Assembly (NCBI RefSeq): GCF_030505615.1
Contig: NZ_CP129992.1
Span: forward strand, 1,302,001-1,366,000
Length of the DNA: 64,000 nt
Direction of reading: 5' to 3'
From: Salinibaculum rarum
Lineage (GTDB): Archaea > Halobacteriota > Halobacteria > Halobacteriales > Haloarculaceae
In this document: in pieces, positions 21,041 to 60,085 of the stretch
Layout of the letters: each line of letters starts with the position of its first letter
Position numbering within the stretch: position 1 is the stretch's first letter
Notes under the pieces: model-generated
The model's database searches: none
The model's input: the letters and a program-made list of their open reading frames with translations, nothing else
Told to the model about the DNA's origin: nothing
Program-made: the position numbers and the translations under genes

Positions 21041-21102
21041 CGGGATTTGAACGACGCCGGCTTCACTCGCTGGCGCTCGCTCGTCGTCTCGTTCAAATCC
21101 CG
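21041..21102. repeat. Palindrome made of tRNA-Asp T-arm copies
   Basis: CGGGATTTGAAC at 21041-21052 and its exact reverse complement at 21091-21102 are 12-base copies of the T-arm of the adjacent tRNA-Asp (21173-21184). Next inside, ACGACG/CGTCGT also pair with a small bulge. The palindrome lies 61 bases from the 3' end of the tRNA gene. Between the arms lies a GC-rich stretch with CGCTGGCGCTCGCTCG-like short repeats. Confidence 0.85.
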
Positions 21103-21163
21103 CATCTGGTCGTCACAATAGAGCAATCGCTCGGCGATGAAACACCTCGCGGAAAGTTAGAGA

Positions 21164-21236
21164 CGCCCGAGGCGGGATTTGAACCCGCGTCACAACCGTG
21201 ACAGGGTTGTATGATGGGCCACTACACCACCCGGGC
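21164..21236 (-). tRNA. tRNA-Asp (GUC)
   Basis: The minus strand folds as a complete 73-base tRNA. The acceptor GCCCGGG pairs with CTCGGGC (one G-T), the anticodon stem is ACAACC-type with loop CTGTCAC giving anticodon GTC, and the T-arm is GCGGGTTCAAATCCCGC. The discriminator base is G, as expected for Asp. CCA is not encoded. A TATA-like box at 21264-21272 lies at the usual distance upstream. Confidence 0.96.
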
Positions 21237-40684: not shown

Positions 40685-40756
40685 GGGCTCGTAGATCAGT
40701 GGCAGATCGCTTCCTTCGCAAGGAAGAGGCCCCGGGTTCAAATCCCGGCGAGTCCA
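40685..40756 (+). tRNA. tRNA-Ala (CGC)
   Basis: The 72-base gene folds with acceptor GGGCTCG paired to CGAGTCC (one G-T), D-arm GATCAGTGGCAGATC, anticodon stem CTTCC/GGAAG with loop TTCGCAA (anticodon CGC) and T-arm CCGGGTTCAAATCCCGG. Discriminator A. The G3-T70 wobble pair, the identity mark of alanine tRNAs, is present. CCA is not encoded. Confidence 0.96.
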
Positions 40757-40905
40757 CTCCTTCACTTCGTTCAGTCGTTCCCTCACCGACCTTCGCAAAC
40801 CCTTCGGGTTTGCTCAGTCCCGGCGAGTCCACTCCTTCACTTCGTTCAGTCGTTCCCTCACCGACCTTCGCAAACCCTTCGGGTTTGCTCAGTCCCGGCG
40901 AGTCC
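40756..40905 (+). repeat. Two perfect 75-bp repeats ending in the tRNA-Ala 3' end
   Basis: Bases 40756-40830 and 40831-40905 are identical. Each copy ends in TCCCGGCGAGTCC, the last 13 paired bases of tRNA-Ala, and contains a perfect eight-base-pair hairpin (GCAAACCC, loop TTC, GGGTTTGC). The tRNA end itself therefore stands three times in a row at 75-base spacing. Confidence 0.92.
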
Positions 40906-40941
40906 GTTTTGAACCGATTGTTTCATCGAGCGTGACGAAAC

Positions 40942-40952
40942 CCCGGCGAGTC
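40942..40952 (+). repeat. Fourth copy of the tRNA-Ala 3' end
   Basis: CCCGGCGAGTC recurs 37 bases after the tandem repeats, in the same orientation, without the rest of the 75-base unit. Confidence 0.6.
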
Positions 40953-52079: not shown

Positions 52080-52943
52080 TCAGCGACCGTCTGCCGGGGC
52101 CACTGGCGCGGGCGGTTCTGGACGGTTGTCGGATTCGACGCCGAGTTCACGCCACAGTCGCTCTTTCGACAGCCGGCCGAAATCGGCCTTCCGATGGCAG
52201 GACAGACACAGCGAGACGACGTTGTCCAGGCGGTGCGCGTCGGTCTTCTCACACCCCTCGCTCTCGGCGAACACCCGCACCGGCACGATGTGGTGGACGT
52301 CAGGATTCCGACCGATGTCGACTTTCGTCGCCCCACAGATTACGCATTCGTGGCCGTCTCGTTCGAGCGCCTCCCGACGGACACGATTCCAACCTGGGCC
52401 GTAGTTGCCCGTGTCGCCGCCCTTCCAGTTGGGGTGGCCGTCGCCGGTGAACGCTTTGGAGAGCCAGTCGCTGAGACACTCTCGGTCGCAGACAGTCACT
52501 TCGCCGGTCACGTCACTTGGATACCGACGCACTATCTCGTTACAGGCTGCACATTCGAGTTTCAGTTTCCCTCCTTTCCACTGTGGATTATTGTTCCCTT
52601 CTAGAGGCGGTCGTTCACGCCACTGTTTTGACTCAACGCAGTCTGAACAGTACAGTCCTTCTTTTTCTGATGGATAATACTCGAACGAGGCGCCACACAA
52701 CTCACAATCTGTCTTCTCTTTTCCACCACGGTAGTTTGGATTGTTTGATCCTTCGTATGTCACAGCGGCGTCTCGACACTCGTCTGAACAGTACTTCTGC
52801 TCGTACTCACTGTGAAATTGTTCTCCGCAGTTTGTACACTCGCGGTTTGGCAATCGTTCACCGTGGATAGAACTGTGATGTACTCCCAATCCTCGTCTGC
52901 TATCGAACTGTGACCCACACGTTGGACATCGATAGTCTGTCAT
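52080..52943 (-). CDS. HNH endonuclease with repeated zinc fingers
   Basis: The 287-residue protein has an N-terminal C2H2 finger (YRCPTCGSQFDSRRGLGVHHSSIH), then three Cys-rich fingers (CTNCGEQF...CSDEC, CELCGASF...CSDC, CAACNEIV...CDREC), each linked by a repeat of the form NPxxxGG(K/D) such as NNPNYRGGK, NNPQWKGGK and HPNWKGGD. The C-terminal 90 residues are an HNH nuclease (CVICG, DVHHIVPV, NVVSLCLSCHRK). This build is typical of homing-type or mobile nucleases that read DNA with multiple fingers. The N-terminal half is clearly less GC-rich than the C-terminal half, and tRNA-His lies 105 bases upstream. Confidence 0.88.
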   Translation of the reverse strand: MTDYRCPTCGSQFDSRRGLGVHHSSIHGERLPNRECTNCGEQFHSEYEQKYCSDECRDAAVTYEGSNNPNYRGGKEKTDCELCGASFEYYPSEKEGLYCSDCVESKQWRERPPLEGNNNPQWKGGKLKLECAACNEIVRRYPSDVTGEVTVCDRECLSDWLSKAFTGDGHPNWKGGDTGNYGPGWNRVRREALERDGHECVICGATKVDIGRNPDVHHIVPVRVFAESEGCEKTDAHRLDNVVSLCLSCHRKADFGRLSKERLWRELGVESDNRPEPPAPVAPADGR

Positions 52944-53047
52944 TGTTCCCAACTCTCTCTGACTGATACTAGAATGTCGGCCTGCCGGGGTGAAAGTAAA
53001 ACTGTGGAGATTCGTCTCTCGTCTCGAATTATGTTAGGAATATAATA

Positions 53048-55909: not shown

Positions 55910-56028
55910 TTCCGTAGGCGGGGTGAAAGTGGTGCAGTCGGGCGGTGACCGACCGACGTGGACGGGGCCGCTCAGGCCAGAACCCTCCCGCCGACGGGAT
56001 TTTGTGCTCGCCGGCCGAACTGCCCGCA

Positions 56029-56316
56029 ATGACCGACCGGGACCGGCTGACCCGCTTTCTTCAGACGACCCTCCGGAACGCGGGACGACAGTACGAGGAG
56101 GCCCGGCGTACGTTCGACAGCGCACGCGAGAGCGCGCTCGCGGACCTCCCGACCGACGATGCAGGCAGGGCCAAAATCGTCTGTCGTCGCTACGCCGAGC
56201 GCCGGGCGGCCCGACTCGACGCCGACGCTCGACCGGCCTGCTTCGAGAGCGACCACCCCGACTGTCAGGGCTGCGTTGAGGACATTCAGGCTGGCTGTAT
56301 CGAAACCTGGGAGTAG
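56029..56316 (+). CDS. Haloarchaeal conserved protein, 95 residues, Cys-rich C-terminus
   Basis: The 95-residue protein starts at ATG 56029. The N-terminal half is helical and basic (TRFLQTTLRNAGRQYEEARRTFDSARESAL), and the C-terminal half holds KIVCRRYAERRAARLDADARPACFESDHPDCQGCVEDIQAGCIETW, with five Cys and an Asp/His cluster that could bind a metal. It is divergent from the rpa3 operon and lies next to it, a pairing that could link it to DNA handling. I believe it is a haloarchaeal family with no proven function. Confidence 0.75.
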   Translation: MTDRDRLTRFLQTTLRNAGRQYEEARRTFDSARESALADLPTDDAGRAKIVCRRYAERRAARLDADARPACFESDHPDCQGCVEDIQAGCIETWE

Positions 56317-56417
56317 TTCGTTCGTGTCGGTACTGTGCCGGCCGAAAAAGTGCGCTGGCCGGGACTGAGCAAACACGAAGTGTTTGCGAGGGTCGGGCGG
56401 CGGACGACCGAAGGGAG

Positions 56418-56438
56418 TGCGCCGGCCGGGAATTGAAC
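56418..56438. repeat. 21-base direct copy of tRNA-Gly 3' end
   Basis: Bases 56418-56438 are identical to 56548-56568, the discriminator, acceptor and half of the T-arm of tRNA-Gly. The copy lies 110 bases beyond the 3' end of the tRNA gene in the same orientation. Confidence 0.9.
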
Positions 56439-56510
56439 TGGGCGAGACGTTCCGGGCGTGCGGCGCTTCGCGCCGTTCCGGGGCTGCGACTCGCTTGCTC
56501 AATTCCCGGC
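56425..56510. repeat. Palindrome made of tRNA-Gly T-arm copies
   Basis: GCCGGGAATTGA (56425-56436) and its exact reverse complement (56499-56510) form 12-base arms. Inside them GCGAG (56442-56446) pairs with CTCGC (56490-56494). The loop holds a perfect hairpin (CGGCGC, loop TTC, GCGCCG). The order relative to the tRNA is: tRNA, inverted copy, direct copy. Confidence 0.85.
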
Positions 56511-56547
56511 TTGCGGTTTCACTGTTCACAATCGTTCGCAGATAAAA

Positions 56548-56618
56548 TGCGCCGGCCGGGAATTGAACCCGGGCTATGAGCTTGGGAAGCTCATGTCCTA
56601 CCACTAGACCACCGGCGC
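56548..56618 (-). tRNA. tRNA-Gly (CCC)
   Basis: The minus-strand 71-base gene has acceptor GCGCCGG/CCGGCGC, anticodon stem TGAGC/GCTCA with loop TTCCCAA (anticodon CCC) and T-arm CCGGGTTCAATTCCCGG. Discriminator is A. CCA is not encoded. A nine-base copy of its 5' acceptor end (CACCGGCGC on the plus strand) recurs at 56671-56679. Confidence 0.95.
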
Positions 56619-56765
56619 TCGTTCACTGCGTTCACTCGCGCCGAGCCTCACCTCGCTTCGCTCGGTGAGACACCGGCGCCTGTTGTCCATTCTGCCGTGA
56701 GTTCACTTCAACGTAGCGCTTCCACGAATCAAACGCGTGTCCACTCCGCTCTGTGGAACGTACCA

Positions 56766-59801: not shown

Positions 59802-59873
59802 GCCTGGGTAGCTTAGCGGTAAAGCGCGTCCTTGGTAAGGACGAGACCCCGGATTCAAATTCCGGCCTAGGCT
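59802..59873 (+). tRNA. tRNA-Thr (GGU)
   Basis: The 72-base gene has acceptor GCCTGGG/CCTAGGC (one G-T), D-arm GCTTAGCGGTAAAGC, anticodon stem CGTCC/GGACG with loop TTGGTAA (anticodon GGT) and T-arm CCGGATTCAAATTCCGG. The discriminator is T. CCA is not encoded. Confidence 0.95.
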
Positions 59874-59939: not shown

Positions 59940-60013
59940 CGGAATTTGAATCGAGAGAAGACGCAGCGCGAGCGAAGCGAGCGACCGTCTTCGCGTGGTT
60001 CAAATTCCGGCCT
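59940..60013. repeat. Palindrome made of tRNA-Thr T-arm copies
   Basis: CGGAATTTGAATC (59940-59952) is the reverse complement of the tRNA T-arm at 59852-59864. TTCAAATTCCGGCCT (59999-60013) is a 15-base direct copy of 59854-59868. Together they give 11-base perfect outer arms, with AAGACG/CGTCTT pairing inside and a central GC-rich palindrome (CGCGAGCGAAGCGAGCG). The order is tRNA, inverted copy, direct copy. Confidence 0.88.
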
Positions 60014-60085
60014 GGGTTTTCCGGGTGCCTGACCCAGAGCGGCGCTTTCACAACACTTTTCGCGCTGTTCGCGTACTGACAGCGT

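Follow-up and report, generated by a model that had tools for sequence, protein, structure and literature searches.

Arrays of small hairpin units behind tRNA genes of Halobacteria: possible non-coding cassettes recombining at the T-loop

In E. coli K-12, the tRNA of the tyrV/tyrT cluster is followed by three 178-bp repeats that are annotated as rttR and also go by the names RtT RNA and tpr. Within each repeat, 10 nt of the tRNA 3' end recur in inverted orientation at +59, and its last 19 nt are copied exactly, in direct orientation, at +159; the units are identical at 169–170 of their 178 positions. Among the matches listed, one to four annotated RtT features were found in 10 of 12 E. coli records and the tRNA alone in the other two. 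The arrays of Halobacteria that we describe here resemble this cluster: in both systems tandem units stand behind a tRNA, each unit closes with a copy of the tRNA 3' end and an inverted 3'-end copy lies within the unit. The haloarchaeal layout is of a known kind, with E. coli tyrT as its nearest parallel, but its group-wide and fast-evolving occurrence at many tRNAs differs. The E. coli system is one cluster of near-identical 178-bp units with an encoded CCA and a small ORF, whereas the haloarchaeal units are diverse, occur behind many tRNAs, carry a repeat that starts from the T-loop and, in a cmscan search of 10 loci, present no match to the RtT RNA family. We found no description of such haloarchaeal arrays in the open-licence literature of PMC.

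Other described systems share parts of this layout. The T stem-loop is a known place of integrase recombination, according to a passage of PMC8371274 that cites Williams 2002. As at integrase att sites in T-loops, the direct repeat of the haloarchaeal arrays covers the tRNA from the T-loop to its 3' end and the tRNA is intact; however, the haloarchaeal units measure only 77–235 nt, form arrays and contain neither gene nor integrase between the repeats. In integrons, attC sites fold into two stems with an unpaired spacer, and the crossover falls after the G of GTT. Integron cassette arrays are likewise composed of serial units, and their folded site may have a counterpart in the haloarchaeal hairpins, but the haloarchaeal units are devoid of genes and their target is a tRNA. 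A term search in the main text of the archaeal integron paper PMC9668308 returned no mention of Halobacteri- or tRNA. In Haloquadratum walsbyi, the SMR-A are non-coding mobile repeats of about 110 bp whose mover is unknown and whose targets are palindromes; the sections of PMC3119063 on these SMRs report terminal inverted repeats, no target duplication and IS605/PATE ends as targets. The haloarchaeal tRNA units are also small, non-coding and possibly mobile repeats, but they show a 21-nt duplication and a tRNA target and do not qualify as SMR-A. Finally, CRISPR arrays also present repeats between units; their spacers are unique, whereas the haloarchaeal units are homologous, structured and share segments.

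The window, that is the whole stretch of 64,000 nt that we analyzed (G000 C1:1302001-1366000), belongs to a haloarchaeal chromosome. Downstream of its tRNA-Gly(CCC), toward falling coordinates, we observed successively a 109-nt segment, an exact 21-nt copy of the tRNA 3' end and a worn 67-nt second unit (Table 1). An earlier note on this DNA had described the 21-nt copy, an inverted T-arm copy and a 9-nt copy of the tRNA 5' end, and we recovered all three at the positions given in Table 1, together with a worn 3'-end copy that was absent from that note. The 21-nt match was attained in none of 200 dinucleotide shuffles of the flank, and the 9-nt match at the 5' end is weak by itself (shuffle fraction 0.025). 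As the note had also proposed, there is no plausible gene between the two 21-nt copies: a mechanical ORF of 210 aa with a GTG start (55972-56604) crosses the body of unit 1 and enters the tRNA-Gly(CCC), and it is taken as a product of chance. Hairpin B of unit 1 has a predicted minimum free energy of −50.8 kcal/mol as RNA (z = −4.5) and of −29.1 as DNA (z = −3.8), relative to 200 simple shuffles. The congener G001 kept this unit with the same core at the same tRNA-Gly(CCC) locus, where an inner segment is missing and the copy matches at 20/21 positions. This copy pair was therefore not seen coming and going.

Table 1. Positions of tRNA-associated units in the window.
Feature	Position in window	Strand	Source
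tRNA-Gly(CCC), anchor of the array	56548..56618	-	ARAGORN; RF00005 70.7 bits
Body of unit 1 (109 nt), with hairpin A, the inverted T-arm copy and the core	56439..56547	-	
Hairpin A of unit 1, CTGCGAACGA..GTGAACAG type; similar hairpins folded elsewhere	56522..56541	-	
Inverted copy of the 3' half of the T-arm, 12 nt; left strand of hairpin B	56499..56510	-	
Hairpin B of unit 1	56418..56510	-	folding
Core of hairpin B, with AGTCGC..CGTCT motif	56441..56491	-	
Exact 21-nt copy of tRNA-Gly(CCC) nt 53-73; closes unit 1; right strand of hairpin B	56418..56438	-	
Unit 2, worn, 67 nt in total: GCAAAC..GTTTGC hairpin (56369-56387) and degenerate 3'-end copy (56351-56367)	56351..56417	-	
Unit on the 5' side, with 9 nt copied from the 5' end of the tRNA (56671-56679), a hairpin (56647-56669) and GGCGC complementary to nt 1-5	56619..56679	-	
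Hairpin B unit behind tRNA-Asp(GTC) (21164-21236)	21041..21103	-	
Array behind tRNA-Ala(CGC) (40685-40756) with three copies of the 3' end; 75 nt separate copies 1 and 2, whose units are near-identical	40757..40952	+	
Hairpin B unit behind tRNA-Thr(GGT) (59802-59873)	59940..60018	+	

Copies were found at the tRNA-Gly, tRNA-Asp, tRNA-Ala and tRNA-Thr of the window, and tRNA-His is its only tRNA without an array. About 96 nt behind this tRNA-His starts an ORF (52080-52952, minus strand) that resembles by eye an HNH nuclease with zinc-finger pairs. On the main contig of the window genome (45 of the 46 RF00005 matches on C1), an exact copy of the tRNA's own 3' end of at least 12 nt lies within 500 bp downstream of 16 of the 45 loci, and 9 of the 45 present a copy of at least 15 nt. 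No upstream flank contains an own-end copy of 12 nt or more (0/45; one reaches 10), and pairing each flank with the ends of other tRNAs (n = 1976) yielded 12 nt in 2.1% and 15 nt in 0.1% of the comparisons. Downstream of 10 of the 45 loci, the T-arm is copied in inverted orientation over 12 nt or more.

The survey was based on 211 tRNAs in the retrieved loci of five genomes from two genera, leaving out weaker tRNA matches and including some uncertain ARAGORN predictions. Copies of nt 53-73 (at least 18/21 identical) were identified 92 times downstream, three times upstream (two of these within a tRNA cluster) and never inverted at full length. At least one such copy lies within 800 nt downstream of 70 tRNAs, and the other 141 are without one. 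Pure chance or low complexity is ruled out as the source of these copies by the shuffles, the cross-pairs and the upstream and inverted controls. The 77 copies with at least 20/21 identity (66 of them perfect) end exactly at nt 73 in 35 cases and within 3 nt of it in 69. At the other side, the repeat begins at nt 50-53 in 73 of the 77 copies (0, 1, 2 and 3 nt beyond nt 53 in 11, 36, 6 and 20 copies, respectively) and further away in four; this left end is unsharp, largely because a G precedes in both copies. Mismatches in copies with at least 16/21 identity are mostly on the side of the copy (158 cases, relative to 10 where the tRNA deviates, 26 where both alleles are known and 12 where neither is), indicating that the copies decay and the tRNA stays.

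The unit, i.e., the segment ahead of the first copy, measures 77–235 nt (n = 58), with 51 of the 58 between 80 and 150 nt. It is composed of two hairpins, A and B; in hairpin B, the copied tRNA end forms the right strand and the inverted T-arm copy the left one. None of the 58 inserts was found to bear a gene, and an integrase would not fit in them. Over the 58 inserts, the inverted 12-mer matches nt 54-65 of its own tRNA at 9.95/12 positions on average, relative to 8.43 for other tRNAs and about 7 for shuffled inserts. The inverted arm is only partly tRNA-specific. By eye, the left arm of hairpin B tracks T-loop variants, such as those of Asn and Leu, and often pairs with nt 70-73 as well, across a bulge. 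In 77 modules, copy 2 matches its own tRNA at 4.86 of the 5 T-stem positions, the first of which was fixed by the search pattern, and at 6.26 of the 7 acceptor positions (shuffled: 2.79 and 3.21). A perfect quasi-palindrome produced by fold-back copying is unlikely, as, by eye, the inverted arm has a break near nt 66-69, and as cores are shared.

We further compared the arrays between related species. The second and third units sit more than 100–250 nt behind the tRNA, and the Met array of G002 consists of three units, each closed by a perfect copy. The first unit has a clean empty site in a congener at 15 of 57 comparable filled loci: the sequence that follows the copy in one species is the sequence that directly follows the tRNA in the other, with an offset of 0 to 3. 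Two congeners are cleanly empty at 4 of these 15 loci; the comparison of Gln-CTG with G002 is ambiguous, the relative being closer to the insert than to the flank. Orthology rests on an 80-nt flank at 4 of the 15 loci (Ala, Gln, Met and Ser-GGA), where upstream similarity is slight. Loss through recombination between the 21-nt repeats leaves the same clean site, so that gain and loss look alike, and the Gly-GCC and Thr units of G002 would be the only parsimonious gains, provided that G002 and G036 are sisters. This comparison covered first units only, which cannot reveal growth next to the tRNA, and distal changes were also seen; we therefore dropped such growth as a claim.

Distal changes and reordering are well illustrated by individual arrays. 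At Gln-TTG and Gly-GCC, G021 and G036 have an identical first unit and different later ones, and the two Val-TAC events involve two identical units in swapped order. The tRNA-Gly(GCC) of seven congeners is followed by seven different arrays (one without recognisable copy and one with a run of N), in which the hairpin A sequences are alike but reordered and the cores are different. At this locus, G002 and G036 are 99% identical upstream and differ by a unit of 151+21 nt, a relative of which occurs in G418. Similar segments are also found at different places of a given tRNA's array when sister species are compared: unit 1 of G036 and unit 3 of G002 share 105 nt at 97% behind Met, and the corresponding segments measure 70 nt at 100% for Lys and 68 nt at 97% for Leu. 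Among the matches listed, none of the 15 newly present units matched a unit of its own array at full length, and 5 presented partial matches of 18–81 nt.

Sequences are shared between different tRNAs as well. The units of Glu(CTC) in G002 and of Arg(CCT) in G000, a member of another genus, have 42 nt in common at 97.6% identity, beginning right after the inverted arm, and their inverted arms differ, each fitting its own tRNA by eye. The Glu(CTC) core of G002 is 90.7–92.3% identical to units in Salinadaptatus, Natribaculum and Halopiger, and the Gly core of the window is also found behind tRNA-Tyr in G021 and G036.

The pairing of the core was analyzed on 36 distinct cores fitting the AGTCGC..CGTCT motif, drawn from 135 rows. 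The two pairs beside the motif are Watson-Crick in 29 of the 36 cores each; 5000 shuffles, in which kinship of the cores was ignored, gave on average 11.3 and 14.8 such cores and at most 22 and 25. In the same 36 cores, pairs 3 and 4 of the helix do not exceed the shuffled values. The case that the folded form of hairpin B is selected is good but not final. G-T pairs are scarce: each variable core pair is of this type in 1/36 cores, and the arm stems counted in 48 inserts comprise 18 G-T, 501 Watson-Crick and 57 other pairs, the arm having been chosen by identity, which favours Watson-Crick pairs. This scarcity gives a weak hint of a DNA rather than an RNA fold. A known RNA family was ruled out by cmscan on the 10 loci (E up to 5): only 10 tRNA matches reached the gathering score, and 10 others were below threshold.

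The distribution of the units was determined with a pattern consisting of an inverted T-loop, 18–48 nt and a T-loop, which is not expected from two real tRNAs. Within the family, the pattern was found in 25 of 37 genomes and its reversed control in none, and 23 of the 25 family loci stand 32–248 nt behind a tRNA (the exceptions are L071 and L084, an orphan). At the level of the phylum, the pattern was detected in at least 53 of 81 genomes of the order against 3 of 311 elsewhere, the latter being sequence-pattern matches alone. The GTTCGAATC form, which represents the other common T-loop spelling, was detected in at least 25 of the 81 genomes and in none of the 311; since the two patterns cover only two T-loop spellings, the counts for the order are lower bounds. 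A scan of named genomes yielded at least 118 stretches, 80 of them with names, which were sorted by record title. Among the matches listed, 36 of the 37 haloarchaeal stretches lie behind a tRNA (22–226 nt; the miss is at a contig end), as do all three from euryarchaeal MAGs of unstated class, none of the 40 from other named taxa and 19 of the 38 without names. In a Micrarchaeota MAG (L158, L166), T-loop hairpins of similar shape, two of them in L158, were also seen on stretches where no tRNA was detected.

These observations bear on the attachment-site pair that the earlier note had proposed for the 21-nt copies. Part of this proposal holds: the pair is not due to chance, it extends from the T-loop to the last base of the tRNA, integrases are known to act at the T stem-loop, and such segments differ between congeners at the 15 of 57 loci mentioned above. 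A single attL/attR pair of one element is, however, ruled out by the recurrence of this architecture at many tRNAs, both in the genome and across the order, each unit carrying its own tRNA's end. Arrays reaching three perfect copies and the retention of the unit with a 20/21 copy in G001 also speak against the pair. Two larger insertions encountered at tRNA-Gly have longer repeats. In the first (L434 2860-5125), tRNA-Gly(TCC) is separated by 2.2 kb from 43 nt that duplicate its 3' part, and this stretch contains a 150-aa ORF that by eye is like the N-terminal part of an integrase. In the second (L071), 1.3 kb bounded by a 45-nt tRNA repeat part the hairpin from tRNA-Gly. Both repeats begin in the anticodon arm, and their length sets these insertions apart from the hairpin units. 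The window region presented no match to phages and three partial matches to plasmids. An origin of the units on viruses or plasmids was rejected, as the pattern occurs at 31 places in viral contigs, none of them behind a tRNA within 450 nt.

The 5' side of tRNAs is affected much more rarely than the 3' side. Copies of the 5' end occur in mirror-image hairpins upstream of the window's tRNA-Gly(CCC) and of the paralogous tRNA-Gly(TCC). Across the survey, copies of at least 11/12 within 300 bp upstream were found for 7 of the 211 tRNAs, which do not include the window tRNA, and for 0/211 with one simple shuffle each. Several unusual loci were also observed. The trailer of the tRNA-Gly(TCC) of G001 (L007/L254) contains an anticodon-arm copy, hairpins and a full T-arm copy, which amounts to a near-complete second tRNA stuffed with hairpins. 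A lone hairpin unit with tRNA-Gly acceptor ends and no tRNA (L008, about 1500-1580; G001 C1:3096613) adjoins an ORF resembling by eye a peptidyl-tRNA hydrolase. By eye, L043 (about 1395-1575; contig C2 of G010) harbors the 3' part of a tRNA-Ala and array units without a complete tRNA. Clusters of RF00005 matches were found on the third contig of G000 (4 at C3:101786-102251 and 9 at C3:133096-138010), and at least five tRNA matches lie at 746-750 kb of C1 in G001. Such tRNA clusters occur on tRNA-rich haloviruses or plasmids.

Our leading reading is that haloarchaeal tRNA genes serve as anchors for arrays of very small non-coding cassettes that may recombine at the T-loop, and from the sequence comparisons we give it a probability of roughly 0.36. 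Site-specific recombination in the T-loop, close to G53/T54, would move units into and out of the array; each unit would bring a replacement tRNA 3' end, leaving the tRNA intact and the old end behind as a copy. The folded hairpin B would serve as the recombination site in the manner of an integron attC, without being a member of attC. A repeat from T-loop to tRNA end, an intact tRNA, presence and absence by whole units and an arm fitting the target are what T-loop recombination with a folded site would give. A bolder version, in which gene-free integron-like hairpin cassettes folding as single-stranded DNA are group-wide and rebuild the tRNA end each time on the T-loop as a platform, is unlikely on present evidence; most haloarchaeal tRNA genes would then be possible platforms, and E. 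coli tyrT a relic or a case of convergence.

Turnover of the arrays with no enzyme devoted to it is almost as probable as these T-loop cassettes. An ancient partial duplication of tRNAs may have produced short direct repeats, on which slippage, unequal exchange and gene conversion would then have added, removed and reordered units, with the hairpins as by-products or with another role in DNA. Direct repeats of 21 nt spaced by about 100 bp are good substrates for deletion, and units, or large parts of them, do recur elsewhere in the same tRNA's array in sister species (Met, Lys, Leu). The swapped Val-TAC units, the seven arrays of seven congeners, the two near-identical Ala units of the window, and the near-identity of tyrT units with RtT numbers that vary between strains are all consistent with such turnover. 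Haloarchaea are polyploid and exchange DNA between species, which perhaps aids it. Moreover, the unsharp left end, the dropped claim of growth and a count of two rather than three likely gains weaken the case for cassettes and strengthen that for turnover. Turnover accounts less readily for the lack of full-length own-array matches among the 15 new units listed, for cores common to different tRNA types and organism families, for compensatory change in two core pairs and for a right repeat end that is nearly always at or near nt 73.

A function as RNA appears doubtful. The array would be co-transcribed with the tRNA, hairpin B would mimic the acceptor/T-arm minihelix, and tRNase Z would cut behind every nt 73 to set small RNAs free. 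In E. coli, RtT RNA is said to arise in this way, and the tyrT/rttR layout there is alike. The end of the repeat is the tRNase Z site, the left strand of hairpin B pairs with nt 54-65 and often, by eye, with nt 70-73, the core pairs are maintained and the fold is stable. On the other hand, G-T pairs are rare where RNA would have G-U, units vary between congeners, later units are far behind the tRNA and most tRNAs are without a unit.

Insertion of the units at the tRNA 3' end by a Cas1- or casposase-like integrase, with the 21 nt as target-site duplication, is very improbable. The repeat ends are fixed relative to the target, and casposases favour tRNA 3' ends, as the relevant part of PMC6977970 reports; yet the duplications given there measure 14–15 bp, and in M. 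mazei they share no more than the final 4 bases with the tRNA. The units resemble casposons in their tRNA 3'-end target and differ in their 21-nt repeat and in sharing no terminal inverted repeats, none of which were seen by eye in the 15 presence/absence units. Ordinary attL/attR scars of lost proviruses or plasmids are less probable still: according to a section of PMC3119063, tRNAs do serve as integration sites of haloarchaeal elements, which leave 3' fragments, but L434 and L071 have 43- and 45-nt repeats, and a common order-wide hairpin with maintained pairing is not expected from scars.

With these arrays, what seemed an oddity of one E. coli tRNA cluster would become a general phenomenon at tRNA genes across an archaeal group. 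The units are young enough to differ between related species, and their mechanism is directly testable. The arrays may account for unstable tRNA flanks and serve as fast strain markers, and their study could bring to light a novel type of recombination or small RNAs from a novel source.
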